From: Siphonodentalium dalli
Taxonomy: Eukaryota > Mollusca > Scaphopoda > Gadilida > Siphonodentaliidae
Assembly: GCA_032622095.1 (NCBI GenBank)
Contig: CP136068.1
Span: 125,059,989-125,123,988 of the forward strand
Direction: 5' to 3'
DNA: 64,000 nt
Both the position numbers and the translations under genes were made by a program. The notes under the pieces are model-generated. The model was not told the DNA's origin, ran no database searches, and worked only from the letters and a program-made list of their open reading frames with translations. Positions within the stretch are counted from its first letter, which is position 1, and the number at the start of each line of letters is the position of its first letter. Of the stretch, positions 9,850-53,700 are shown piece by piece.

Positions 9850-12733
9850 TACAACACTTAACTATTCTCATTTAAAAGACATTATACAGAAAAAAATATT
9901 CCAAAAATAATACGATCCGATGGCTCAGAAACCGAGGACTTTTATCAAATTTTACAAGAACAAGAAAACTTCTATAGAGATTTATATAAATCTAAAGTTA
10001 AAAATAAGGAACAAATAACATCACAAGATGATTTTTGGGACCAAGATAACCCCTTTTTGAATACCCTAGATCAAAATGAGGGACCCTTAATTAATTTAGA
10101 ATGTGTAAATGTTTTGAAAAATATGAAAAATGACCGTTCACCAGGAAGTGATGGCTTCACTGCCAGTTTTTATAAATTCTTTTGGAAAGACCTAGGACAA
10201 TTCGTGACTAATTCTCTTAATTGTGGTTACAGCCAACTTGAACTCTCTATAACACAGAAATGTGGTATAATAACATGTATCCCAAAACCAAATAAAGATA
10301 AAGCGCATTTGAAAAATTGGAGACCTATCTCACTTCTCAATATAGACATGAAAATTGCATCAGCAGTGATAGCTAATAGACTAAAAAAATACCTCCCTAA
10401 ATTAATTTCCAACTCCCAACTTGGTTTTATGTCTGGACGGTATATTGGAGAATCCTCTCGACTGACACTAGATTTGATTGACAAATGTGAAAAAAAATGA
10501 TATTTCAGGGATATTAGCAATCTTGGATTTTGAAAAAGCATTTGACTCATTAGAGTGGTCTTACATAGAGAAGTGCTTAGACTTTTTCAAATTTGGAACT
10601 TCAATTAAAAGATGGGTGAAAACCTTCTACACATATATCTATAGCTATGTAATAAATAATGGTAATCTTTCAAATAAAATACAAATTTGCAGAGGAGTAA
10701 GGCAAGGAGTCCCTCTATCGCCATATCTTTTTATTCTCGCTGTAGAAATCTTAAGTGCAAATCTAAAATTTAACCCGGACATAAAAGGTATTGAGTTAAA
10801 TGGATCAGAATACTTACTCTCACAATACGCAGACGACCTCACACTCTTCCTTCAGGATGATCAAAAATCTCTCAATGTTGCACTTAATACATTTGATAAA
10901 TTTAGTGCCATATCAGGTTTAAAAGATAACTTTGACAAAACAGAAGCAGTCTGGATTGGGGCAAAAAGGGGTTGTGGTGAAGAAAAGGTGACTGACCAAA
11001 GAATATCCTGGAATCACAAAATATCATTCAAAATTCTTGGCATTGAAATAGATTTGTACAGTGAAAATTACATACAAAATAACTACAAGAATAAACTAAT
11101 GAAAATTGAAAAACTACTAAATGACTGGTCTCTATGGTAAGACTACAGTGGTTAAAACATTGTCGTTGCCAATGCTAACTCACTGTCTTACAGTATTACC
11201 ATCACCTTCGATTGAAATGCAAAACCAAATTCAAACAGTATTTTTCAAATTTCTTTGGTCAGGTAAACCAGACAAAATTAAGAGAAATATTATTATTAAT
11301 GAATTAGAAGCAGGTGGCCTTAAATTTCCTCATTTGGAATCTTTTAATAAAGCATTGAACTGACATGGATAAAACAAATGTTGAACCCAAATATTGAAAC
11401 TAGTTGGAAATCGATACTTATTGATGAGTTAGAACAACTTGGGGTGAAAAAATTTGGAAATTAAACAAAGAAGGGCTGAACTTAATTGGTAAAAAATTGA
11501 ATACTTTCTGGAAAGATGTACTTAAATCATGGTCTTGCTGGCAAACTATATCTATCACCACAACCCCAGAAGATATCCAAAGCGAACCGCTCTTTTACCA
11601 CAAGAATATCAGAATAAACCGAAAAATGGTCTTCTATAAGACTTTTTAAATGATTTAATAAATGATGAAACCTCTGGCATAATGCAATATGAGGAATTTT
11701 GTAGCAAGTGTGATTTACAAACTCCCTTCACCACCTATATAGGCCTGATTACAGCCTTACCAAAGGCATGGGAAGACTGTTTATCGACATCAATTCACCT
11801 TAACAGTGTGACATCTGATTATATAATTAGATTAAAAAACTGTGAAAAAGCTTGCAGAGAGTTTTACCCCATTTTCTTGAATGAAATTATCCTGTCACCC
11901 CAAACATCTCAGAAAAAATGGCAAGACCGCCTTGGGAAAATATTTTCAGCTGAGCAGTGGAAATCAATATACAATAACACGGCCAGAATAACAAATGACA
12001 CTGGGCTTTTATCTTTCCAATTCAAAATGAATCATGATATCTTATACACAAATTCAAAGCTTTTTAAATGCAAATTATCAGAAACTGAGTTGTGCTGCTT
12101 CTGTCAAGAACAAAAGGAAACACTGCTTCACTTTTTTTTTATGAATGCCCAGTTTCTAAATCAGTACTATTGTCATTACATGAAAAAATAGCGGAAAAAT
12201 GTAATATAAACTTTGACATTTCACCAGAACGGGTAACCTTGGGTTGCAATATAATTGAGACTGAAATAGATAATATAATTAGTCTTTGTATTTTACTATA
12301 TAAAAGGTATATATATTCCTATAAATTCAGGAACAGTGAACCTTCAGTGAAGGGCTTAATAGAAACAATACAGCATTATAAAAACATAGATGAGGTACCA
12401 TTGAAACGCTTCTCCACTAGGAAGGAAAAAACTTTCTTTGAAAGATGGAAACTTTTAAATTCTCTATTCACAACAAGTCACACTGTTAGGGTGGTTAGCC
12501 GTAGTAGAGACTCTATACCTGTTTAGATGCTTCCCTAAATTAAACTTATATGAAGTTCTCATTTCTATTTTTTATATCATTGAAATGTGGAGAATAATTG
12601 AAACTGAATATCTAATTGTAATCCTCTTTAATTTCTGCAATTTTTGCCAAATGTCTGTATTTTTTGTATGACAAGTCTGAATGAGTATATATTTTTGATC
12701 GCAATAAAAATTATTTAAATTAAAAAAAAAAAA
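9850..12733 (+). pseudogene. 5'-truncated Tx1/L1-type LINE, reverse transcriptase ORF with frameshifts
   Basis: This is the reverse transcriptase part of a non-LTR retrotransposon. The endonuclease is missing, so the copy is 5'-truncated. In order it has SPGSDGFTASFYKFFW, IPKPNKDK and NWRPISLLN, then LDFEKAFDSLEW (catalytic Asp motif), RGVRQGVPLSPYLFILAVEI, and YADDLTLFL (catalytic YADD). A long C-terminal region ends at 12526. It ends in an A-rich 3' UTR and poly-A (about 12721-12733). The frame breaks at an A8 run (10490-10497), near 11140, between 11360 and 11680 with stops, and at a T9 run (12132-12140). The motif spacing fits the Tx1 group of the L1 clade. The same clade recurs at 57891-59816. 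Confidence 0.85.
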
Positions 12734-18224: not shown

Positions 18225-18446
18225 TTAACCCCTTCATGAAGGGAGCTGCACTGGTGCATCATTAAAGACCATGTGCCAGTGCATATTCTTATATATGCGA
18301 GTCTCCAATTAGGAGCATCACATATATATAAGAGAATGCACCAGCTTACAATATCAAGGTAAATATTGTTAGGCGCATATATAAGAGAATGCATTGGCAC
18401 AGGGTTTTAGCAAAATTTCAGGAAGCTTAAGTCATGAAAGGGGTGT
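18225..18446. mobile_element. Diverged MITE relative with TTAACCCCTTCATGAAG end
   Basis: The left end TTAACCCCTTCATGAAG pairs with TCATGAAAGGGGT on the right. Inside are palindromic arms (TTCTTATATATGCGAG and TATATAAGAGAATGCA) and a final ATAAGAGAATGCATTGGC. These are shared with the TTAA-flanked MITEs at 20470, 24863 and 29859. The right TTAA is not preserved, so it is an older or related subfamily. Confidence 0.55.
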
Positions 18447-20469: not shown

Positions 20470-20941
20470 TTAACCCTTTACCCAACAGAACGGCCCTGTG
20501 CCAATGCATACTATTATATATGCGAATCGACCATAGGTCGCCTCGCATATATGAGAGAATGCATTGGCTTAACATATTAAAAATGATAAAATTGTCAAAG
20601 AATGTAGAAAAATATTATAAAAATTGTTAAAAAATGTAAGAAAAAATTCTAAAATTGTTAAAGAATGTAAGAAAAAATGGTAAAAAGTGTTAAAAAAAGA
20701 TTTTGTTTAATCCAATGCATTCTTTTATATATGCGAGGCGACCTATGGTCGACTCGCATATATAAGAGAATGCATTGGCACAGGGCATAACTGTAACAAT
20801 CACAATGTGGTCAATGAACCGGTTTCAATGATATCCATATTTGTATGGTGTTATTGAGACAGACCGAAGACATTTTAGGCTGTTGAAGCTCTATTTGGGC
20901 GTTTTGGCCGGTTTTGGCTGTTTTGTTGGGTAAAGGGTTAA
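20470..20941. mobile_element. TTAA-flanked MITE with two 69-bp palindromes, copy 1
   Basis: Inverted ends TTAACCCTTTACCCAACA and TGTTGGGTAAAGGGTTAA are each bounded by TTAA, which fits piggyBac-type elements (TTAA targets, CCC-starting ends). There is no coding capacity. Palindromes lie at 20500-20568 and about 20711-20779. Each has arms of the GCCAATGCATTCTCTTATAT type around a three-base centre, and the second is the reverse complement of the first. Between them is A/T-rich filler. Orientation is opposite to the copies at 24863 and 29859. Confidence 0.85.
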
Positions 20942-20984
20942 AACAATTTCCGTCCTCTAGGAGATTTCGTTCCGCCATATTCGG

Positions 20985-21575
20985 AATATAATTGTTTTCA
21001 TCAACAACATGCTACATGGTGGAGTTTAATTTGTTCAAACCATAATATCAGTAATGTGCTTTTTTCGATTTCGGGTATATCGCTAGCAACCGTTACCACC
21101 CCATGTAAGTAAGAGATATATTCCCACACTAACAACTACTATAATTGTTTTCACCAAGGTGCATTTTAATTTGTTAAAACTTACATAATATCAGTCATAT
21201 TTACATTACTTCGATTTCGGGTAATGTACTTAGCAACTGTTAACACACCTGTACATGTAAGTAAGAAATATGGTAATTGTTCAGTCAAGTACACACCAAC
21301 AAAAACTATTATAACTGTTTTGCATCATATCATCCTACATAATTTGTTAAAACTGCCGTCATATGTATATTTTTCGATTTTGGGTATGCCCCTAGCAACC
21401 GTTAGCACCCCTGTAAGTAAGAAATGTGGTAATGTTCGTGTCAGATCCACACTAACAACAACTATTACAGTTGTTTTCATCATAAAATGATACAGTGCGT
21501 AGTTTAGTATGTTAAAACTGCCATAATATAATATTAGTCATATGTGCATTTATTCGATGTCGGAAGGTTGCCTAG
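20985..21575 (+). repeat. Tandem array of a 145-175 bp unit, about 3.5 copies
   Basis: The unit contains CGATTTCGGGTA (near 21067, 21209, 21375, degenerate near 21554), CTAGCAACCGTTA, CTGTAAGTAAGAAAT, ACACTAACAACTA and TTTGTTAAAACT. Copies are clearly diverged. It looks like satellite-type DNA, with no coding content. Confidence 0.8.
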
Positions 21576-21579
21576 AAAC

Positions 21580-22544
21580 AGAAGGACGGACATGTCGCCA
21601 TTGCCCCTATCTGACAAAATTTATGCCGAGTTGAATGCTTGTATTATCTTTTGAACAAGTGTTATACCAAACGCCTGGACTATATCAAATTCAACGGGAA
21701 ATTGAAACAACAAGCACAGAGAGATAAATCTATTTTGTACAGATATTAAAACTTAAATTAGCGAAATTGATATTCAAACTGCTATTAGTATCTCCACATA
21801 AGTATATTTGATGACGATATCTTACATTATGATCGTCTGTCGTGGCTAGTTTGCAATGAAATGTGTTTAGGGGCGTCAACCTGCTTTGTTTAGGCTGAAA
21901 ATATGTTTTAATATTTTGGTGAAGAACTACACACATTTGGTTTACAAAATACACTTTTAATGGAATATGTTTGGGAACATTTTGTATTATGACAGATTAG
22001 ACCCTTTCCCATAAAACATACTGTTCCCGTATTCCCCGAAGAGTTGTAACAAAACTTGTTTCTCGGCGTTTCCGGCGGTTCGTCCTATGGTCTACAAGGA
22101 TATATTCTTCCTTGAATAATACGTATGTGCGTAATTTGTTTTTTTTTCCATTCAATTTATGGTCGTCGAATATATCATGTTTAAATTGTGATATGTGTTC
22201 TTGTTTAACTTCACGACCAACTGCCTCTTATTTTGATGTATTAGCAGACAGTGGGACGTAGATAGATGGTCTCCGTTGGGGGTGTCCTAATTAAAATTTC
22301 ATACTGCACTCCCTTCTACCAGACCTAATTTACAAATTGGGGAAAATGCCGTTTCCAATTGTTAAAAAATACTGATAATGTTGAGAGGGAATGAGACACT
22401 CAAACATAGGATATTTAATTTTGGGATAGGGATTTTAGTCAGTCATAGTCGTAGATTTGAAAATATTAAGTGATCGAGCCATCGAGGACGCTGCAATTTT
22501 ATATTGCAGATGGGGAAAAATCGCAGGCGGAGAACAGTGGTAAG
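21580..22544. other. Non-coding stretch, no gene seen
   Basis: No domain or repeat was recognised. It probably belongs to the intron between the two lectin exons. Confidence 0.4.
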
Positions 22545-23099
22545 CTCGCAGACAGGGCTGGGGTAATTGTAATTTGTAATTGTAATTGATTGTAATTAAT
22601 TACATTTTTTCAAGTAATTGCATGTAATTGAGTTTATTCTCAATTACATGTAATTGCAATTGTAATTGGTTAGGATGTAATTGTAATTGTAATTAGGGTT
22701 TAATTTCAATTACTTCAAAATCACAGGTACTTGTTTCTTCTCAAAGTTCTCTTTCATGATTCACCCAATGGTTTCTTCAAATGGTTTTTTTCCCAAAATT
22801 TCAAAGTGTATGACTGGTGACTGGCTATCACTATGTTGTCACAACACTGAGTTTTTATCCACTGTGTCTCAATGGTGAATTCTGTTGACACCTCCTGTTT
22901 GTTTGCTTAAGCATTGGTTAACCTTTTAGTAGGCTTGTTTTGATAAATACAATGAGAAACCAACTTCAAATAATAGACAATATATCACTATAATATATCA
23001 CTCTTATGATAATGTTTCATTATCTCCATCTGATATGGTATATATGCTATGGTAGAAATTCATACCAACCATTGCTAATGCTATGAGCATGTTTACAAA

Positions 23100-23910
23100 A
23101 AATCTGGCAGCATTTTAATTTGCAGAAAGACACATCGTGTCCTATGAAAGCGAAGTGCAAACTTTGCCCAACTACAATATCCAGTTCCAAAAAAGTTACC
23201 TCCAATTTTGTGACACATCTGAAGGTAAGTTTCCATTTCTATGTATTAGCTTTGTTTAATTCCATTGACATATAACTTCAGTCATATGGTGGTATTGGTA
23301 ATTTAATTTATTTTTGTAATTCTTTTTCACCATTTGTACCACGATTGTGGTTTATGTGAATAAACAATTTGATTTGATTTGATTTGATTTGGTATATGCA
23401 TTGTATCTTGTCCCTTCTAATTTGCAACTGAATGACAAAGAGGGGACAAATATCTGCTTCAGTAATCCCCCAATTAGCACTGTCTATTGGAGGCATTGTG
23501 TTACCAATAAGCTGGTGGCCACAAAGGCTATTTAAGATTATGACTCTAATTAACAATCAGAGTGTTGATTATCTCATTGTCCTTTACAATTGGCCTGACT
23601 GTGTGTCTGACTTACTGAGATAGTCTTATTCCCTTAATAATTAAATGATGGATACATGTGTGTTACTAAAATACTCTATTATTTTCATTTTATAGCGAAA
23701 GCATCAAGATGTCTATGAATCAATAGTCACACAGGCACCATCAGCAAGTGATCAACAACCTACTAGGCTCTATCAGTATGCAAAAACATCGGTCAAGAAT
23801 GCGAAAGCATTGAAGATAGTTAGCAAAGTTCATAAATGTCTTATATCATTCCAATTTTTAGAAGATCAACCCCGACTACAAGCTGCCAATGCAACACGCT
23901 GGAATTGCCA
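23100..23910 (+). pseudogene. hAT transposase remnant: BED zinc finger split by an intron
   Basis: The first exon encodes IWQHFNLQK, KAKCKLC, then TSNFVTHLK and stops at 23224 before a GTAAGT donor. After a TTTTATAG acceptor the second exon (23696) reads RKHQDVYES. Spliced, this gives the BED finger C-x2-C...H-x4-H (HLKRKH). Further on, KALKIVSKVHKCLISF and ATRWN resemble the hAT transposase region around the conserved TRWN. A stop and frame loss follow near 23915, and most of the catalytic domain is missing. It is a dead, internally deleted copy. Confidence 0.75.
23290..23392 (+). mobile_element. Likely 3' tail of a LINE or SINE inside the hAT intron
   Basis: CCACGATTGTGGTTTATGTG then AATAAAC followed by a GATTT tandem tail resembles the 3' ends of short truncated non-LTR copies. 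There is no coding part and the 5' limit is unclear. Confidence 0.4.
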
Positions 23911-24862
23911 GCTATAAATCATGATTCGCTCAGTTCTACAAACACCTATACTGGACTCAGTACATTGGCTGCTCTGCACCAAGTGTGCTTCACCATGTAT
24001 TTCATCTTGCTTGTATTAAATTTATGTTTTGTTATCAAATAAAGTTTATATAAATAAAAAGTGTTCCTACATCAATTATGTGCTGAAATGTAATTGTAAT
24101 TGAATTACATTTCAAAGTAATTGTAATTATAATTAATTACATTGTGAAATAGATGTAATGTGAATTGTAATTGTAATTGAAAAATGTTGAAGTAATTGTA
24201 ATTGTAATTAATTACATTCACAAGTAATTGCCCCAAGCCTGCTCACAGACGCTGCAGTGCTGTGATGTTAGTTGAAATTATCTCCGTATAAAGTGCGAAA
24301 ACAAAGCCAAAAAGGCAAAGGGTTATATTTCATTCTCCTCATTATGCAATTATAGATATGACATGTATCTCAAGTATCTAAACTAAAGACTTGGCTATTT
24401 TTTATTTGAACTTGAACAATGCATTATATTCTATATTTTTTATATTTTGTACTCGATTTCTGTACCGATTGCGCAATATCAGCAATTGCTCAATGTGGTC
24501 TGGGCCGAGTGACCCTCTGCTCTATGTTGGCGTAGCATCGGGAAGAAACATTATATAAGTATATAAACACTCCCTTTCCTGCCTCAACTCGATTAAAAGT
24601 ATCTCCTTTTAAGAAGTACAATGGGTTGAATTTATTGTTTGCGCGTGTTACCAAGGACACGCCACGATTTTCCTGGTAAATCAAACATTGCTTTATCGCT
24701 ACGATATGCCTGCGGTCTTGTCGTGAGCGTGTGCAGTGGGGGCTCCACAGTGATTTCCCCCACCTTTTTGCGATGTAAAATCGCAGGAATTACTCCAGTT
24801 TGTAAGAATCTCTAGCTCAATTCGGTTGCATAATGAAGATGAAGCACGCTGTGACGTTCCAT

Positions 24863-25246
24863 TTAACCCTTTACCCAACAAAACGGCCAAAACCGGCCAA
24901 ATAAAGCTTCAACAGCCTAAAATATCTTCGGTCTGTCTCAACAGAACCATACAAATATGGATATCATTGGAACCGGCTCCTTGACCACATTGTGATAGTT
25001 ACAGTTATGCCCTGTGCCAATGCATTCTCTTATATATGCGAGTCGACCATAGGTCGCCTCGCATATATAAGAGAATGCATTGGCCTAAAAAAAATGTTTT
25101 TTAACACTTTTTACCATTTTTTCTTACATTCTTTAACAATTTTATAATTTGTAATGTGTTAAGCCAATGCATTCTCTTATATAGGTCGACTCGCATATGT
25201 AAGAGAATGCATTGGCACAGGGCCCTTCTGTTGGGTAAATGGTTAA
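24863..25246. mobile_element. TTAA-flanked MITE with two palindromes, copy 2
   Basis: It runs from TTAACCCTTTACCCAACA to TGTTGGGTAAATGGTTAA with TTAA at both borders. The first palindrome is at 25016-25084. The second (25163-25216) has lost its central part, leaving a shorter hairpin. The leader carries AAGCTTCAACAGCC and ATCTTCGGTCTGTCTCAA, shared with copies 1 and 3. Confidence 0.85.
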
Positions 25247-25674
25247 CATTGGTTAAACGGATATGGCTCATTCGAGCTTTTGGTGTCAACATTATTTATT
25301 TTGTATCCCAGATTTTATACAACAATTTACAAGATATATGCTTAAGTATGGCAAGTCTGAGAGAGAGTTGACATCAAGCACCATGCGCCTATATGGAGCC
25401 ATCTCCTAATTCGAGCTTTTAAAATGTTTCTACGTAATTTGAAAGGCGGACTAAAATCGTGTTGACATATACACGAAATATTGATATACCAGCTTCATAT
25501 GCTCTTGAAACTACTTGCCATGATCACATCCATTTGAAAGCTGTTTTAAAAGTTTCGCATTTTAGTGAAATAAACAGGAACAGAATAACATGGAGCGCTC
25601 TTTTGTGTTCCTGTCGTGCAAATGGCTGCTTTTTGTTGGGAATTGTGACCCCAAACATCGTGTTTAGAGTTGTA

Positions 25675-25812
25675 TTTTTCATGACATCACTACGTCATTT
25701 TGGGACGCACAATTCTCGAACAAAGGTAGTTCAGGTATTTATCGACCTATTTCGATGCCGGGAAAAATTCAAAAGCGAATATTAGTAGGTGTATTTTGGT
25801 GCGGAAACTGTA
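25675..25812 (-). repeat. Inverted-repeat family, copy left of the lectin exon
   Basis: Read on the plus strand, AAAGGTAGTTCAGGTATTTA and GGGAAAAATTCAAAAGCGAA match the reverse complement of 26872-27035 and 42895-43050. It ends 23 bases before the lectin exon at 25836. Thus the exon is bracketed by inverted copies of one repeat. Confidence 0.65.
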
Positions 25813-25835
25813 AGCGTTTCGTGCTCTCTTTTCAG

Positions 25836-26068
25836 AGTTTACAGCCGGCTGCGTCTACTTCGTGGATGGCTCGGACGAAGGTCACACGTGGACGTGGAAG
25901 TACTCAGACGGAAGTGGCGTTACATGGGTCAATTGGCAATCCGGAGAACCAAGCAGTTCGAGTGAGCACTGCCAGACAATGTACTGCAACACATCATGGA
26001 GAGTGATCGACACATACTGTAATCACGCGTCTTTTCCGAGGAACTATATCTGTGAAATCGATGTGTGA
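25836..26068 (+). CDS. C-type lectin-like domain, terminal exon
   Basis: An acceptor CTCTCTTTTCAG precedes the exon. The frame reads FTAGCVYFVDGSDEGHTWTW, KYSDGSGVTWVNWQSGEP, then EHCQTMYC, WRVIDTYC and NYICEIDV before TGA. This is the C-terminal half of the fold: W-x-W, a loop with EPS where sugar-binding lectins have EPN or QPD, and the conserved cysteines before YICE. The WND motif is replaced by WRV, so classical calcium-dependent sugar binding is doubtful. It begins with two codon bases, in phase with the exon at 18919-19092, which supplies the first half. No nearby AATAAA was seen. Confidence 0.8.
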
Positions 26069-26255
26069 CTCCGCGTCTTATCTGAGGAACTATATCTGTG
26101 AAATCGATGTGTGACTCCGCGTCTTATATGAGGAACTATATTTGTGAAATCGATGTCTGACTCCGCGCCTTATATGAGGAACTATATCTGTGAAATCGAT
26201 GTGTGGCTCCGCGTCTTATATGAGGAACTATATCTGTGAAATCGATGTGTGACTC
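26027..26255 (+). repeat. 46-bp tandem repeat that copies the last codons and stop of the lectin exon
   Basis: GAGGAACTATATCTGTG starts at 26038, 26084, 26130, 26176 and 26222, an exact 46-bp period. The first unit is coding (RNYICEIDV and stop); the next four lie 3' of the stop. Units differ by one to a few bases (one has TCTGA, one has TGTGGC in place of the stop region). Confidence 0.92.
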
Positions 26256-26289
26256 GATCGAACAGCTTTACGCCGAGGGAAGCGACTTC

Positions 26290-28030
26290 GTGGTCCATTT
26301 TGTGACATTTAGATTTTTTAAAGCAATATTCGAAGTAGAACTAACAACAGTTATAATTTGGAATCCAAAATAGTATAGTGTCATGTGAACTGAGATATCA
26401 CGAACACCAAAAACGGGTATGGGTAAATATGTGAACGCCATCACGTATACATAAGTACCGGTACTTTTGATTTTGATTATATCAAATTGACTACTAATAT
26501 CTTACTAAGGTTTTTAATCAAAAGTACTCTATTCTATAGAATAGGAATCTATTTCTTGTGACCTTCCATCGGCAAATCTCATTGATAAAGTTGCAATTTC
26601 AGCCATGTGTTATGTTCAAATGCTTGAGGCGGCTTCAAACACTTACCTAACTGCGGAAAGCCAATATGTTCACAAACAACTGTGCTCACTCCAATAATGG
26701 CATGTGATGGTTTAGAGAGGGACAATGCGTGGATGGTTCCAGACGCAGTCCCTACTGCTGTGCATATGTATCTGTATGTATTGTGGAATTATACATGTAT
26801 TACTCTTTCGGAGATAATATTTAAATGCTTGAGTTGGTTTTATCGCCTATCAGAGATGTACGACTGATTGCTCACATGGTGGTTTGCGCTTCAAAATTCA
26901 CCTAATAATATTCACTTTTGAATTGTTCCAGGTATCGAAATAAGTCGATACACACTTGAACTACCTTTCTACGGGAATTATATGTCACAGAAAGACGCAT
27001 TGGAGTCGTACCAAATACATACTCGCCCGTACAAAAAACTGACATTCACACTTCTTCCGATTACAGTCCACCATCATCAGACTGATGATTATGACTAACT
27101 TCATTTTGGCAATAGCTTGTAATAATTTCTCTTCATGATTAGAATTTGTAATAATATAATTTAATTTGAGTGTCATGATTGGTTGATAAGATTCTGTACT
27201 GAGTCGAGTGGGCTTTCTGGGACATCCAACATGGATATAGTTGGTTCATCATCATGGTCCTGAACTCGTCGACTAAATGATGGTGACTATTTCAGTTGGT
27301 ATAGCATTCCATTATCTTGTGGTCCGGCGGACGAAAGAAAATGTGTGGTAATCGTAGTTTGAGTGTGGAAATATATAACCGAAAATTTAATATTTATAAC
27401 AGCATTTAAGATGAGGCCTACGTCAAATTGTACTGTAAGAAGTATAATTCACGAAGAACAGTTATGTTTGATGCTCTAAATAGTTTTAATGATAGATTCT
27501 ATTTCTTTCCAGAAAACAAAACTTAAGATAATTCTAAGTTGTAAAGAGAACGACATATGCACAGTTGTAAATAAGTTCCTAGATGTAATATTAAAGATGC
27601 ATAATCCGATTAATCAGATATCGATTTTTGAAATCTATTATTTTTCAACATCAAGAATTAATAGTGGCCCAATAAACAGTCGACGAGCCGATGGTTTCGG
27701 ACCAAATTGCGAATGAAGATGGATAACTCTAAAACCAAGAGGCTTTCTGTTGTTAATAAGCACAATTTCGTTGAACAACATGTTGATAAATAACACGTAT
27801 CGGGCAATTTTATACTATAGTTGACAGTGGTTAGCATTATATATATGGGCAATTAATCAAATCTGATAGCTGAATCGGCATTTCAAAAAATGTTGTTGGA
27901 ATCTAATTATATGGGGACCATCGAATCGGATTGAGTACCTATCAAGGACAGAGGTAAAAAATTAATAATACAAGTGGCAATATACACAAGCATACATTTA
28001 CAGATTATGTTGTTCCAGGTTATGCATTGT
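26290..28030. other. Non-coding stretch holding one repeat copy (26872-27035)
   Basis: At 26872-27035 lies a second copy of the repeat described at 25675, in opposite orientation (TTCACTTTTGAATTGTTCC, GAACTACCTTTCTACGGGAA, CAGAAAGACGCATTGGAGT). Apart from this, no gene or RNA was recognised. Confidence 0.55.
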
Positions 28031-28034
28031 TTAG

Positions 28035-28178
28035 GAGATAAACGTACCCTGTAGAGTTGTACATTCTGGGATTCCAGCATGAAAACAGTTTGTGAACGAG
28101 CCGGCTTGCCGGCGAGTTCACAAACTGTTTTCATGCTCGAATCCCAGAACGTACAACGAAACAGGGTACGTTTATCTC
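28035..28178. repeat. Long hairpin, arms of about 62 bases
   Basis: Arms start GAGATAAACGTACCCTGT and end GAAAACAGTTTGTGAAC, and the reverse complement follows after a GC-rich loop of about 18 bases (GAGCCGGCTTGCCGGCGA). Pairing is near perfect with a few mismatches. There is no coding content. It resembles the other long hairpins in the window only in layout. Confidence 0.85.
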
Positions 28179-28560
28179 AATTGTAATTCAATTTAACAAG
28201 GAATTTGCAAAAATACTGTATAAAAAGTATCATTTAGTCATTTTAATGACACTAATCGAGACTATCATTTGCCATTGTCACCGTGCACAAATCGTTGGAT
28301 TTGTTCAATGCGTTACTCGGAACACTGCTCCGTAACAATTACATGTGGGGCGGGTTGGCTCGTTTCGCTACTCCGTTCTACGCTGATGAAATTTGACCGT
28401 ACTACATTCGGATCTGATGCACGCTGAAGCGGCCGATGTCGGTGAATCGAAAAGTAAAGTTAGCCGCTCTCGGCCAATCAGAATGCTTGTTTTAGTGACA
28501 AATATTCAATTGAATTACAATCATTTTTATTCCTGTTTAATCATTATTATTTTTTTAACA

Positions 28561-28681
28561 GGGGGGGGGGGGGGGTGGAAAAAAACTGCGGGACACAACG
28601 TACCGGGGGTGGGGGGGGGGGTACATAGGCGTAACAAATTTACACGTAAATTTATTCCTTATTCATTTAAGGGGGGGGGGG
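28561..28681 (+). repeat. Cluster of poly-G runs
   Basis: Runs of 15 G (28561-28575), GGGGGTGGGGGGGGGGG (28605-28621) and 11 G (28671-28681) occur within 120 bases. They could form G-quadruplex structures or be length-variable. Assembly error in homopolymers is possible. Confidence 0.85.
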
Positions 28682-28739
28682 TTGTCGGAAAAAATTTGCA
28701 TGTAATGTTTTTCCAAATATGTATTTTATGTATTTTCAG

Positions 28740-29663
28740 TCTCACAACTTCAATTTTCTCTCATTTTATAGAATATGGATTAACCTTAATATCCAAATCA
28801 TATATACATGAGTAGTACAATCCACCTAAAACAATTTTGGATAACCACTGTCTTGGTTTACATGTGATATTGACCCCATTAACCCTCTTAATAATGCCGA
28901 CTATGTCAGTGTCTACCAGTCGAATGCAGAATTCTACCCTGCGATCGCTTATCAGATTATCTGGCAATTTTTTACTGCAGAAATATCCCATGTATTCTGA
29001 TGTATTAAACAATTTCTCCTCCAATGGTATCAGAAAACAGTTATATGCTGGTATCTCACTCATCTCATTTGCATCTTTTTCAAAGTCGAGGTAATGACTA
29101 GTTGTCATTTTTTAAAGTGCATACAAAGCGTTGCGATCACCAATATACATGTTTGTACATGTCATGACATCACGAGGTACAAATCTGCGTTCTACTCTGT
29201 TCTACTGGTAGACAATGACCATTTTAGTCATAATAATCTAAACTAAGTTACCAAGCACCTTCTCGTGAATTGTATGCTCCGGTGTTTTTTTCGGTTTCCG
29301 ATCAAACCGAGTCGTTGTACGGCTGGGGTTTTCTGGTGGGGGGGGGGGGGGGGGGGGGGGGCAAATGGTCAGTGGAAAATACTGCAGTTTTTGCTGTTTT
29401 TTGGGGGGGGGGGTACCCAAACCGAAGAAAACAGTTTTTTCCACCCTGTGTCTGCAGTTTTTTTCAAGCCCCCCTGTCATAAATAAATTTTCCAGATGCT
29501 GCTGACATGATTCATTCATCAACTTGCATCGTTCAATTTGACCCATCTCTACAATTAAACCAGAAGTTTCGACACAAAGTGTAACGTTGACCATACCATC
29601 ATATGTTGTGTCATACATCAACTTCATAAGCATCATCATTTTGAGGTAAGAACATTTAACCAC
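28740..29663 (-). other. Unrecognised minus-strand open frames interrupted by poly-G runs
   Basis: Frames at 29108-28761 and 29663-29480 (first 60 residues) have unbiased, protein-like composition, with LPDNLISDRRVEFCIRLV as the most structured stretch. I considered a Ty3/gypsy RT N-terminus, but the following residues do not fit. No function is assigned, and it may be chance or a relic. Confidence 0.25.
29338..29413 (+). repeat. 24-base and 11-base poly-G runs
   Basis: G runs at 29338-29361 (24 bases) and 29403-29413 (11 bases) are separated by 41 bases. Such long pure G tracts are uncommon in animal DNA. Confidence 0.85.
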
Positions 29664-29858
29664 CCCTTTCCATTCAAGAACTATTTAACTGAAATCTAGT
29701 GCAAACATATGCAACCATTAGTGCATTTCTATGCACATGCTCTTTGTCGTGTAATTATTGAATTTGATTTAGCCATTTACTTCATATCAGCCCACCAAAG
29801 TAGACTTGTCGGGAAAGAAATTATTTTGTACACGGACGTTTACGACTTCTTTTGACGA

Positions 29859-30311
29859 TTAACCCTTTACCCAACAAACCGGACAAAAAACGCCCAAATA
29901 AAGCTTCAACAGCCTAAAATATCTTCGGTCTGTCTCAATAACACCATACACATATGTATATCATTGGAACCGGTTCATTGACCACATTGTGATGGTTACA
30001 GTTATGCCCTGTGCCAATGCATTCTCTTATATATGCGAGTCGACCATAGGTCGCCTCGCATATATAAGAGAATGCATTGGCATTTTTTAAACACTTTTTA
30101 CCATTTTTTCTTACATTCTTTAACAATTTAAAAAAAAATTCTTAAATTAAATTTAAAAAAAAAATATTTTTCTACATTCTTTGACAATTTTATCATTTTT
30201 AATATGTGTTAAGCCAATGCATTCTCTTATATATGCGAGGCGACCTATGGTCGACTCGCATATATAAGAAAATGCATTGGCACAGGGCCGTTCTGTTGGG
30301 TAAAGGGTTAA
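29859..30311. mobile_element. TTAA-flanked MITE with two 69-bp palindromes, copy 3
   Basis: Ends TTAACCCTTTACCCAACA and TGTTGGGTAAAGGGTTAA are bounded by TTAA. Palindromes are at 30013-30081 and 30213-30281. The second is the reverse complement of the first apart from isolated changes. Orientation matches copy 2. Confidence 0.87.
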
Positions 30312-44569: not shown

Positions 44570-45785
44570 TGACCTTTCCGTTCGAAAAATAGCGGCCGTT
44601 CGGGTGCAGTTTGAAAGGAAATGAGTGTGATTTAAATTGAAGAAATTCAGATATAGTTTCAGATTTAATTTTCTGAGTTGGCTTATTGAGTAGCCTCGAT
44701 GAATAAAAGATTGAAAGATAATTTTACAAGCTTCATTAAGATCATATTGATCTGAACAAATTCTGAGAAAGCGGATAATTTAGGATTTGATGAGGCCATT
44801 TAAAAGTCTAGGAAGATGAAATGAGCTTTTATGTAATAAGGCATGAGTATCAGTTTCCTTGAAGAAGACCTTTGTGTCTAATAAACCTTGTTCATGAAAA
44901 CGGCGGCCCTTAAAAATGGTTACATCTAGAAAATTGACTGATGAATTTGAGACTGTAGGTTCTAATTTAATGTTGTCACCGTAAGAGACGAAAAAATGAA
45001 AGAAAATATCTAATTCTGCTTGGGAATGAGTCCATATAAAAACGTGTCATCAAGAAAACGGAAATACATCAATGTTTTTGGTCACACTGCATGGGAAAAA
45101 GCTTCTCTCTCCATTTCGCTATAAAAATTGTCGCGAAGCTAGGAGCAAACTTTTGACCATTGCGACACCCTGGATCTGAAGCCAAAATATATTATTAAAT
45201 TTAAAAACATTGCTTTTGAGCGAAATTTCCAACAGTTGCAATACTTCCGATGTCGGTCTGTCCGGATCCGAATATTTATCAAATGGGTCATTAGTTGATT
45301 GTATGCCTGCTTCTACCGGTATGGATGTGTACATACTAGCGATATCCCAATTTACTAAAATTGCATCCTTGGGAACTGAATATTGACTCAAACGTAATAA
45401 AAAATTACCAGTGTCTTTGATATATGACGAAACACTGACATTGGTGGGGTATAACATTGTGGTGTTTTGTATTTTCTGAAAGTACATGTATACAGGGTGA
45501 ATGTACATGTACTGACTGTCAATATTCCAAAGAATAAATATATTATGATATATGATAACTCTCTGATCTACAATCTGAAACTACTGGTCGTCCTTTGGGC
45601 ATTAAAGGGTCCGGCCAGGTTGCGATAGGCTTATGGATTTTGGGAAGCATAACAAATAAACTACTCTTGGCCGACGGGCTAGCTTCAATATAATTAAGCT
45701 GGTTCTCATTGATAACTTTTCTCTCTTTAAGATCTCAAAAAGTTATTCTTTGAAACATTACAATGCGGTTTTGGTAATTACGTGC
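44570..45785 (-). pseudogene. Penelope-like element reverse transcriptase relic
   Basis: Reading the minus strand across frames gives LPKIHKP, GRPVVSDCRSESYHIS (45660-45570), SYIKDTGNFLLRLSQYSVP, ILVNWDIASMYTSIPVEAG (motif A), VFKFNNIFWLQIQGVAMV (45210-45160), FRFLDDTFLYG (catalytic DD, about 45065-45030), VNFLDVTIF, GLLDTKVFFKETDTHALLH and ACKIIFQSFIHRGYSISQL (to about 44680). The order is that of Penelope-like RT. A GIY-YIG domain was not found. Frameshifts and stops make it non-functional. An extra stretch between SESYHIS and SYIKDT is derived from hairpin-family sequence. Confidence 0.8.
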
Positions 45786-46078
45786 GCTTGCGCAACAGTA
45801 TGGTGATCAGTCAGATTCGTAGGTACGTACGTTGGTGTCACCCTACCGATTTCAGTCCATGACGTCACCCTTACGCAGTCCTTGTCGGCGACGTTACGGG
45901 GTAGATTATAGAGTTGACGCCCTTGGCACTGACTTCCGTTACTAGCTCGTAGCTATATAAACAAACCAGCGATGTGGCTTTTGTCGATTATTGACAGTCA
46001 GTACATTCGCCCTGTATACATGTACTTTCAGAAAATACAAAACACCACAATGTTATACCCCACCAATGTCAGTGTCTC
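45428..46078. repeat. Inverted duplication including a slice of Penelope RT code
   Basis: About 90 bases at 45428-45525 (CACTGACATTGGTGGGGTAT, AACATTGTGGTGTTTTGTAT, TTCTGAAAGTACATGTATAC) recur inverted at about 45990-46078 with only a few changes. The inverted copy ends abruptly beside non-Penelope sequence. Part of the unit resembles the arms of the hairpin at 46453-46622. Confidence 0.85.
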
Positions 46079-46452
46079 GATATCATTTGACCAAAGTTCT
46101 TGACATGAAACCGCGACAGACACGGTGTGAAATACATCGCATTGAGTAAACAATTTCCCATTGTTTCAATTCAACTTCAAGATCGCGGTAAAATCAAAAC
46201 AGCAATTTGTAAGTGGTAAACATGAAAAAGACATCAGGTACCTGCAGAAACTAATTGTTGTGCATATTGATTTCTATTTGAGGTGGAAAATTTTCATGTT
46301 TATCAGTATTTTTAACGATAAGAGCGATGGTAATTGGGGGACTATATGTTATCTAGCGCATTCAAGTGTTTTCTATGGCCGCACATTTCGTTGATAATTA
46401 CGAGCCATTTGTTTGTCTAAATAACATTTTTAAGTTCGAAGAGCATTAGAAT

Positions 46453-46622
46453 GGGGATAACAGTGTGGTGTTTTGTGATTTCGGAAAGGTACATGGCGAA
46501 TATACTGTGGCAAATACCCGTTAATGGGCTCCGGCTCCGCCGTCACCCATTAACTAAATTTGCCACAGTATATTCGTCATGTACTTTTCCGAAAACACAA
46601 AAAAACCACACTGTTATCCCCT
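46453..46622. repeat. Long hairpin, arms of about 78 bases
   Basis: GGGGATAACAGTGTGGTGTT, GGAAAGGTACATGGCGAATA and TACTGTGGCAAATACCCGTT are mirrored after a GC-rich loop near 46530-46542. The outer 50 bases are related to the repeated block at 45428-45500, so this is one family. Confidence 0.87.
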
Positions 46623-50794: not shown

Positions 50795-53700
50795 TTATTT
50801 TACACTGTAACCAGTTTCTGATTTCTTCGAAGGTGGATGGCAAAAATGTACTCTCGGCTCATGTGCTCTAGCTTGGCTGCTTGTAATTTCTTCAATGGTT
50901 GGATGAGAAGAATCAAGAAGAAGATGAGTTAGAAGTTTCGAATCTTCTATGAGGCGAGGGTTCCTTGTTACACTGTCCAATTCTTTAATCTTCTTTATAT
51001 ATTTTTCCCGTAGGTCTTTATATCCTTGACATTCAGCTATGAAGTGTTGCCTATCTTCTGAATCTTTTTGGCATACTTTACACTTGTCATCAACAGCATA
51101 TTGATTAAATTTTGCTCTGTTGCACTGCAATATGTAAGTTCCCGTCAGCAGACTGGCCTTGATTTCAGCTCTGTGTACATCATGCAGGTTCGCTCTGACA
51201 TATCTATAAATCTGGTGTATTTGGTTAACCTTGGGTGAGGGGTCAATATATTTTAGACTTGTCTTCTCAGATATCTTCTCTTTCCATTTGTTTTCGGTGG
51301 AGTAAGTTATAGCTATAGCAATTGTTTGTTTCCACGCTGCTTTCTCTTGTGTTTTTTGGAGTAAATTATAAGCTGAAGGTAGACTATACATATTTAGGAT
51401 TCTTCGAATATAAGAGAACCAGCTGGGAGATTTAAGATCTCGGATGGCAAGTTGTCTAACAGCAAGTTGGTATTCGGCTGAAGACGGAGTGCTGATGATT
51501 CTATGGACTTGGTTAAGTGCATTTCTGTGGATGATTGTTTCGATTGACATGATCCCAAGTAGAGAGCCAACAGCAACTGTTGCAGTTCTGTCGGGAAGAT
51601 GTTGAATTTGTTTGAGGATGGATGTTTGATGTTTTTCAAGCTTTTTCATTTCAGTTGATTTTATGATGAGAACTTCTAAACCATAAGTCAGTCTTGGTGT
51701 AACATAAGCATTCCATAATTGTGCTTTGACCTCTTGGGAGATTCCACTTTTTCCATGTAATCCAGCACCCATGAGAGAGTAACATGTTCTTCTGGACAGC
51801 TGTATCTTCTTTTCTATATCAGGTGTGTTGTGCCCATTTCGGATGATGCCCAGATGTTCAGTGTCAATGGGTCTTTTTTATTGCTTCTCCATATATTGTT
51901 ATCTCCTTAATTTCTGTTTTGGTGTTGTAGATCATAAGATTACTTTTTGTGGGGTTGATTTTGTATCGCTCTGATCTTGAATACTGCTCCACTCTGTTTA
52001 CCATATCTTGCATGTTTTCCGAATCGTGGGCCAGGAGAGCAAGGTCATCTGCACAGGTAACATGTGGGAACCTTAAAGATCCAATTGTAGCTACTTGACA
52101 GTGTTCTTCAATTTGAAGCAGGAGTTGGTTGTTGAAGCGCTTATAGTGTCCAGTTGATGATATACCCCCTTGTCTGACGCCTTGCTTTATGGAGAATGGT
52201 TGAGAAAGTCCACCGTCCCATTTCACTCTGGATTGGACACCGCTATATAGATCTTTTTACAACAGCCAGTCATCTCCTCTAATTCTATCAAGGAATAATG
52301 TTTGTAAAAGTATGGAATGATCCACCACATCGAAGGCTTTCTGAGCGTATAGTGTTATAAATAGTAGTGGTTTCTTCTGTATCTTGGCCTCAGCGATACA
52401 TTCATTCACTATTAGGGCCGCATTGATGGATGAAGTCCCCTTTGTGAAGCCTACTTGGAGCTTAGATTGTGATGGTAAGAGTATTTTTTCATGTCGTATA
52501 TTCAGGATATGTTCTAGAATTTTCTGTCATGTAGATGTCACTGTAATGCCTCGATAGTTTGAGGGATTATGTGGATAGCCTTTCTTGAAGACTGGTGTTA
52601 CCATTCCATCCTTCAGAATCTCTGGAGCTTTTCCGTGCTGTACTATGGAGTTGAGTTTTGATAGGTAATATTCGATTTCAGTCTTCGCAAACTTCAGATG
52701 TTCTGCCGTGAGTCCCATACAATCAGAGGCTTTATAATTTCCAAGTCTTAATATTGCATTAGAAATTTCATCTGGGGTGATGTTATCGATGGATTCTTCT
52801 TGTTTATGGCAGAAGTCTTCAATGTATAGTAGGTCAAGTTCTATGCTTTCTTTATGGTCTGGTTCAAATTCTGGGTAAATTTTAGGAGTTGCCAAATTTT
52901 TTAAGTTATTTGACCATCCTTTGAGTATATCTTCTGGGGTAGTTAGATTGGAGCTATCAACAACCAGTTCAGATACGGTATCTGATTTAGAAGAACGTTG
53001 TCGTCTCACTAGTTTTGAGAAGGTTCTGGCATCTGGTCTTGCATTGATAAGCTGCTCTAGTTCTTGTGTGCGTCGTCTAGCCATCTCCTGTCTCTGGAGT
53101 TTATGCAGCTTCCGTTTACTTATCCTGGATGTTTCGTATTCAATGCCTTGGATTTCCATTTCCACCAGGCTTCCTTGTTTGTTCGAATAGCTGAGTTTAT
53201 TTCTTCATTCCATGGTGTTAACTTTTCTTTATTATAAGCTGATCTTTGTATCCAGGTATGCTGTTCTTTGCTGCATTTACCAGTGTAGCCACGAGATGAG
53301 ATATTGCGTGCTCCATTAGGAGTCCTGTAGCTGGACCGGTTGGGAAGTCTTCTAGGGAGTTGTGTATCAGTTCAATGTAGATTTGTTTATTACATTTCCT
53401 CCAGTTTGGTTTTGGTTTAATTGTAATCTCTCGTTTCTTCTCGGTGCATTGAATGTTTATTTCACCGTATACTGGGATATGGTCCGACATGTTTGACTCA
53501 GTTTTTTCCAGGGTTCTGGATGGTTGTAGTTAAGATGTCTTTTGCATTCTTGTTGTAGAATATGTAGTCGATTTATGCCGTATCTATACCATTTGCATGG
53601 TAGAAGGTGGTTTTGCCGGTTTGTTTTGTTGACAGTTGCTCTTCTTCTTTGAACTTGGTAAGGAGGATATCCCGCTCGTTTTGTGGTTGTCGAGTCAGCG

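Follow-up and report, generated by a model that had tools for sequence, protein, structure and literature searches.

A 69-bp near-perfect hairpin common to MITE families with unrelated ends in Siphonodentalium dalli

We analyzed a 64,000-nucleotide stretch of Siphonodentalium dalli DNA (the window) and found that three of its elements are young members of a very abundant non-autonomous TTAA-inserting (piggyBac-type) MITE, here called family A. The family carries a hairpin that recurs unchanged in MITE families with unrelated ends, and the constancy of this hairpin resides in the source lineages while inserted copies decay neutrally. A structural signal for amplification is the best reading of the hairpins, and we lean slightly towards the view that they form a cis-acting palindromic cassette that has moved from one MITE family to another and is retained because it aids amplification.

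The sequence agrees with the original prediction in placing three copies with TTAA at their borders (Table 1), copies 2 and 3 lying in one orientation and copy 1 in the other. The ends that the copies were said to have in common were found insofar as family A ends begin with CCCTTTACCC after TTAA, but one end of copy 2 departs from this form. Likewise, arms of 33 bp with one mismatch had been described for all six hairpins and were present only at 25016-25084 and 30013-30081. Four of the six window hairpins were near-perfect, one was the 54-nt deletion form and one carried four substitutions. The window hairpins greatly exceed chance expectation: a 21-bp piece of the arm had 15 matches in the window at up to three mismatches and none in 100 shuffles, and the hairpin folded as DNA reached -36.5 kcal/mol (z = -15). 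A fourth, decayed relative, of family E type, was located just beyond the 20470-30311 span. The window also holds an unrelated near-perfect palindrome at 28035-28178, with two 71-bp arms that are 90% complementary, a 2-nt loop, terminal ACCCTGT/ACAGGGT and miRNA-like Rfam matches that are sub-threshold only. Long inverted repeats at 45428-46079 and 46471-46602 (79 bp at 97%; 45 bp at 93%) resemble a further foldback element, a second copy of which is nested in it or lies next to it, and decayed pieces of a non-LTR retrotransposon were seen at 9862-12191 and 50795-53204 (a reverse transcriptase match and a weak zf-RVT match).

Table 1. Family A copies, their hairpins and a related older element in the window
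Feature	Positions	Strand	Remarks
Family A MITE copy 1	20470..20941	-	TTAA on both sides; subfamily 1 by diagnostic sites
Copy 1 hairpin, 30 bp from short-side tip	20500..20568		4 differences from consensus (substitutions); 5 of 33 pairs open
Copy 1 second hairpin, mirror orientation	20711..20779		2 differences; 3 unpaired positions
Family A MITE copy 2	24863..25246	+	TTAA-bounded; subfamily 2; right end CCATTTACCC, not CCCTTTACCC
Copy 2 hairpin	25016..25084		Equal to consensus; 69-nt form, single open pair
Copy 2 second hairpin	25163..25216		54-nt form, internally deleted
Family A MITE copy 3	29859..30311	+	TTAA-bounded; subfamily 1
Copy 3 hairpin	30013..30081		Equal to consensus; single open pair; DNA fold -36.5 kcal/mol
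Copy 3 second hairpin	30213..30281		1 difference; 2 unpaired positions
Decayed older TTAA element, family E type, TTAACCCCTTCATGA end	~18225-18446		Related hairpin pair; loop different, still largely pairing

The 2.23-Gb host genome (nine contigs) was searched for exact matches to family A patterns. The 21-bp hairpin core occurred 126,861 times, where ~0.001 occurrences are expected by chance, which amounts to ~57 cores per Mb. The hairpin-side junction of family A matched 38,851 times and one TIR pattern 26,529 times, and the family would occupy ~0.7% of the genome if one junction stands for one copy of ~410 bp. With lengths of ~240-500 bp, 24-bp TIRs, no coding capacity and many homogeneous copies, family A has the makeup of a MITE. 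In the counted sample, drawn mostly from one chromosome end, the distance from one hairpin to its tip was 30 bp in 52 of 56 copies, and that from the second hairpin to the opposite tip was mostly 153 bp; the spacer between them was variable. The motif CCCTGT lay outside both hairpins, and the asymmetry of the hairpin relative to this outer motif ran in the same direction 121 times to 0. The two hairpins thus sit within one long subterminal inverted repeat and are for that reason reverse complements of each other, as had been proposed and as holds true in the family consensus; the ability of both strands to give the same stem follows from this arrangement. Linked diagnostic sites divide family A into two subfamilies, both represented in the window. 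On one contig (C1, ~826-916 kb, first unit L081) hairpin pairs recurred every ~11.2 kb, indicating that a long segment with a family A copy has been tandemly duplicated there. Comparison of flanks also showed family A copies adjoining arrays of a ~130-bp repeat at six loci (L005, L033, L004, L031, L032 and L067).

The insertion mark of family A is of the piggyBac type. TTAA was found at both ends in nearly all of 64 sampled elements, whose flanks were unrelated, and related sites free of the insert showed one TTAA, or a form differing from it at one base (L090 against L007, L049 against L008, L004 against L075). These data bear out the suggestion of a MITE that inserts at TTAA and has spread recently. 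The terminal motif of the piggyBac superfamily is CC[C/T]T (PMC2872659), and the CCCTTTACCC start of family A ends conforms to it as the TTAA duplication conforms to the target site of that superfamily. Genome-wide, only 8 long-side junctions and 43 tips were without the expected C's. The genome also contains piggyBac transposase domains, with more than 120 matches among those listed, many in frames of 500-700 aa. An autonomous piggyBac-type relative with the same ends had been named as something to search for; among the 40 PF13843 (DDE_Tnp_1_7) loci that we read, out of ~128 listed from 649 candidates, none had TTAACCCTTTACCC ends or the hairpin. We therefore infer a mover acting in trans, and a piggyBac-type transposase would be the candidate to integrate this non-autonomous cut-and-paste family at TTAA. 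Because 40 of the 649 candidate loci were read, family A is provisionally filed as piggyBac-type by anatomy only. The ends of piggyBac itself contain identical subterminal 19-bp palindromes, placed asymmetrically from the tips and beside the terminal motif (PMC11707139). Family A resembles piggyBac in this asymmetric placement within both ends and in TTAA insertion, but its hairpin is 69 bp long and is common to a family of another insertion type, and its mover is a putative one.

A second mode of movement was also considered. In bacterial REPINs the spreading unit is a pair of inverted imperfect hairpins, strongly conserved and separated by a variable spacer; single hairpins occur too (PMC3116915). 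The elements described here have a like architecture, with two conserved imperfect mirror hairpins, a conserved tag outside them and a variable spacer between, and a Y1 (HUH) transposase could in principle mobilise the pair in single-stranded form. However, they are ordinary TIR MITEs in an animal-type genome, and family A leaves a duplicated TTAA on insertion, which marks double-strand cut-and-paste. A search for Y1_Tnp (PF01797) gave 0 matches in the host genome, while five control genomes matched. We consider REPIN-like movement extremely improbable, and Y1 mobilisation was rejected on the lack of a Y1 domain in the genome.

Raw divergence from consensus was about four-fold lower in the hairpins (0.65-1.0%) than in the rest of family A (3.8%). 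We rejected this gap as a sign of hairpin protection since it was caused by subfamily-diagnostic sites. Mutations private to single copies were as frequent in the hairpin (0.71%) as in the remainder (0.70%; p = 0.93). On the other hand, diagnostic sites fell at 0 of 152 hairpin positions against 21 of 206 outside (p = 9e-6), and with clean diagnostic sites only the figures were 0 of 152 and 10 of 206 (p = 0.006). The equality of private rates together with the absence of diagnostic sites in the hairpins indicates that copies decay neutrally after insertion and that the hairpin stays unchanged in the lineages that spread. The expectation that hairpins are better conserved than filler thus held across subfamilies and families and failed for mutations private to copies. 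Selection or gene conversion acting on resident hairpins, also proposed, was rejected: private rates were equal, none of 107 altered pairs was compensated, and no mutation was common to both hairpins of one copy. Overall, what the original prediction had observed was partly confirmed, and its interpretation was partly supported.

The consensus of the 69-bp hairpin was identical in families A, B and C and in unclassified contexts, and its T.C mismatch was retained in 141 of 143 cases. Beyond family A, loci with the hairpin belonged mainly to families B and C. Family B has non-TTAA ends (GTGACCCGCC...) with a 4-bp AWWT duplication in 8 of 11 cases, is symmetric around the cassette and has a junction with 19,326 exact matches genome-wide. 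In the middle of family B (L093, L097, L101, L103 and L111) we saw a further inverted repeat, GAGCCCCAGACAAACATGAGCAGACGA ... TGTGTGGGGCTCCCTGCAGGG, a relative of which adjoins TTAACCCATAGAGAGCCCC in L111 and is probably another nested TTAA element. Family C is another TTAA family, with TTAACCCTTTGAGTGCC ends and one hairpin. The TTAA families A, C and E thus have different ends and one internal region, the hairpin cassette, in common, which is the arrangement of CMITEs. Exact hairpin patterns had no match in the viral and prokaryote collections searched.

The main competing account is that family A is an ordinary MITE with a hitch-hiking, functionless palindrome, and that the identity across families stems from recent exchange among young families. 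Families A, B and C are all young, so part of this identity could indeed come from recent exchange. In addition, the hairpins of their copies lie only ~1-2% from consensus, resident hairpins are under no constraint, and nested elements are common in the sampled loci. A passive palindrome is harder to square with the distribution of change. In loci drawn largely from a single chromosome end, the flanking DNA within family A accumulated 10-21 diagnostic sites and the hairpin 0, with junctions the same in both subfamilies. Between families, in the same sampling, the homologous cassette filler diverged and the hairpin did not. The filler of A and B was identical at 55 of 62 positions, far above shuffles, and differed at 7 of 62, whereas the hairpin plus CCCTGT showed 0 differences in 75 positions (p = 0.003); the same contrast of hairpin and filler between A and C gave p = 4e-5. 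The conserved mismatch and a compensated older variant of the hairpin also speak against hitch-hiking, and we consider it unlikely.

This older variant was recognized by its core, GAGTCTCCCATAGGGAGCCTC, which had 10,121 exact matches, belongs to hairpins of the older TTAA family E and is two compensated base-pair swaps away from the present core with the same T.C mismatch. Since resident copies showed no compensated change, these swaps were fixed in source lineages. No core combining an old arm with a new one was seen among the 100 matches listed of a pattern admitting such a core.

How the cassette travels between families bears on a further alternative, in which an independent Tc1/mariner-like MITE 'D' inserts at TA, has the hairpins for its ends and has landed in other MITEs again and again, with its own transposase rather than that of the host MITE keeping the hairpin constant. 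TA almost always preceded CCCTGT in the non-A contexts that we read, including those outside families B and C (L085, L095, L096, L104 and L114), and L104 and L114 each held a complete hairpin pair that had TA-type flanks and lacked family B ends. The symmetry of family B around the cassette and the existence of a family C element free of the hairpin (L008:1330-1461) are also as this alternative would have it. In family A, which is the largest family with ~60% of cores by counts, the cassette is present without flanking TA; hence the nesting of a TA element does not by itself account for family A. Moreover, no transposase with such ends was found and no empty TA site emerged, and in this AT-rich context the TA could simply belong to the end of the cassette. 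We hold element D to be possible but rather doubtful, if less so than a hitch-hiking palindrome.

The hairpins had also been put forward as a source of small RNAs, in which case stem transcripts would be diced and the cassette would spread through interference with silencing or through host regulation. Perfect 33-bp stems would suit such a role, and as RNA the entire element folds into a single long foldback (-203.7 kcal/mol, z = -22). Structure of this kind is nevertheless expected of any inverted repeat, and the three-base loop is unlike that of typical pre-miRNAs. The Rfam miRNA matches were all below the gathering score. We judge a small-RNA role very unlikely.

The reading that we prefer, a cis-acting cassette aiding amplification, would work as follows. 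The cassette would consist of CCCTGT, the 69-bp near-perfect palindrome with its conserved T.C mismatch and AT-rich filler, two such units standing in mirror orientation, each at a set distance from its tip, 30 bp at one end and usually 153 bp at the other. Transfer between MITE families with unrelated ends would probably occur by nested insertion of a TA-flanked element ending in hairpins, followed by co-amplification, a course with which the TA-flanked pairs of L104 and L114 and the hairpin-free family C element agree. The hairpin would be kept intact in spreading lineages through its aid to amplification, as a palindromic protein-binding site and/or as an extruded hairpin with a presumed molecular reader, and copies, once inserted, decay neutrally. 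A broader form of this proposal treats the hairpin as a selfish unit, evolving by compensated pair changes while its mismatch is conserved, which would help any non-autonomous transposon that picks it up to spread, whether of TTAA or AWWT type. This form appears to us more doubtful than either the element D or the hitch-hiking account.

The nearest precedent, judging from published descriptions, is probably the CMITEs of Acropora corals. These are TTAA piggyBac-type families of ~100-bp elements with different CCCTTT... ends and a common 75-base internal region of unknown origin, which is more conserved between families than the ends, and their autonomous partner is mostly missing (PMC2872659). 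Compared by description, both systems comprise TTAA families with different ends and one better-conserved internal region. In contrast to the coral elements, the region found here forms a near-perfect 69-bp hairpin whose mismatch is fixed and of which an element of ~240-480 bp usually holds two, in mirror orientation; it also occurs in a non-TTAA family with an AWWT duplication, and copy numbers reach tens of thousands. The present elements add four things to the CMITE kind: a long hairpin, a compensated older form of it, its presence in a family that inserts differently, and the separation of source constancy from copy decay. The more than 126,000 exact cores constitute a very large natural set of long near-perfect palindromes carrying family labels. 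In this set the fate of a palindrome after insertion, namely neutral decay with no arm-to-arm correction, can be told apart from its letter-for-letter constancy in spreading lineages. This makes it testable why MITE families with unrelated ends, the coral CMITEs among them, have internal regions that outlast their ends.
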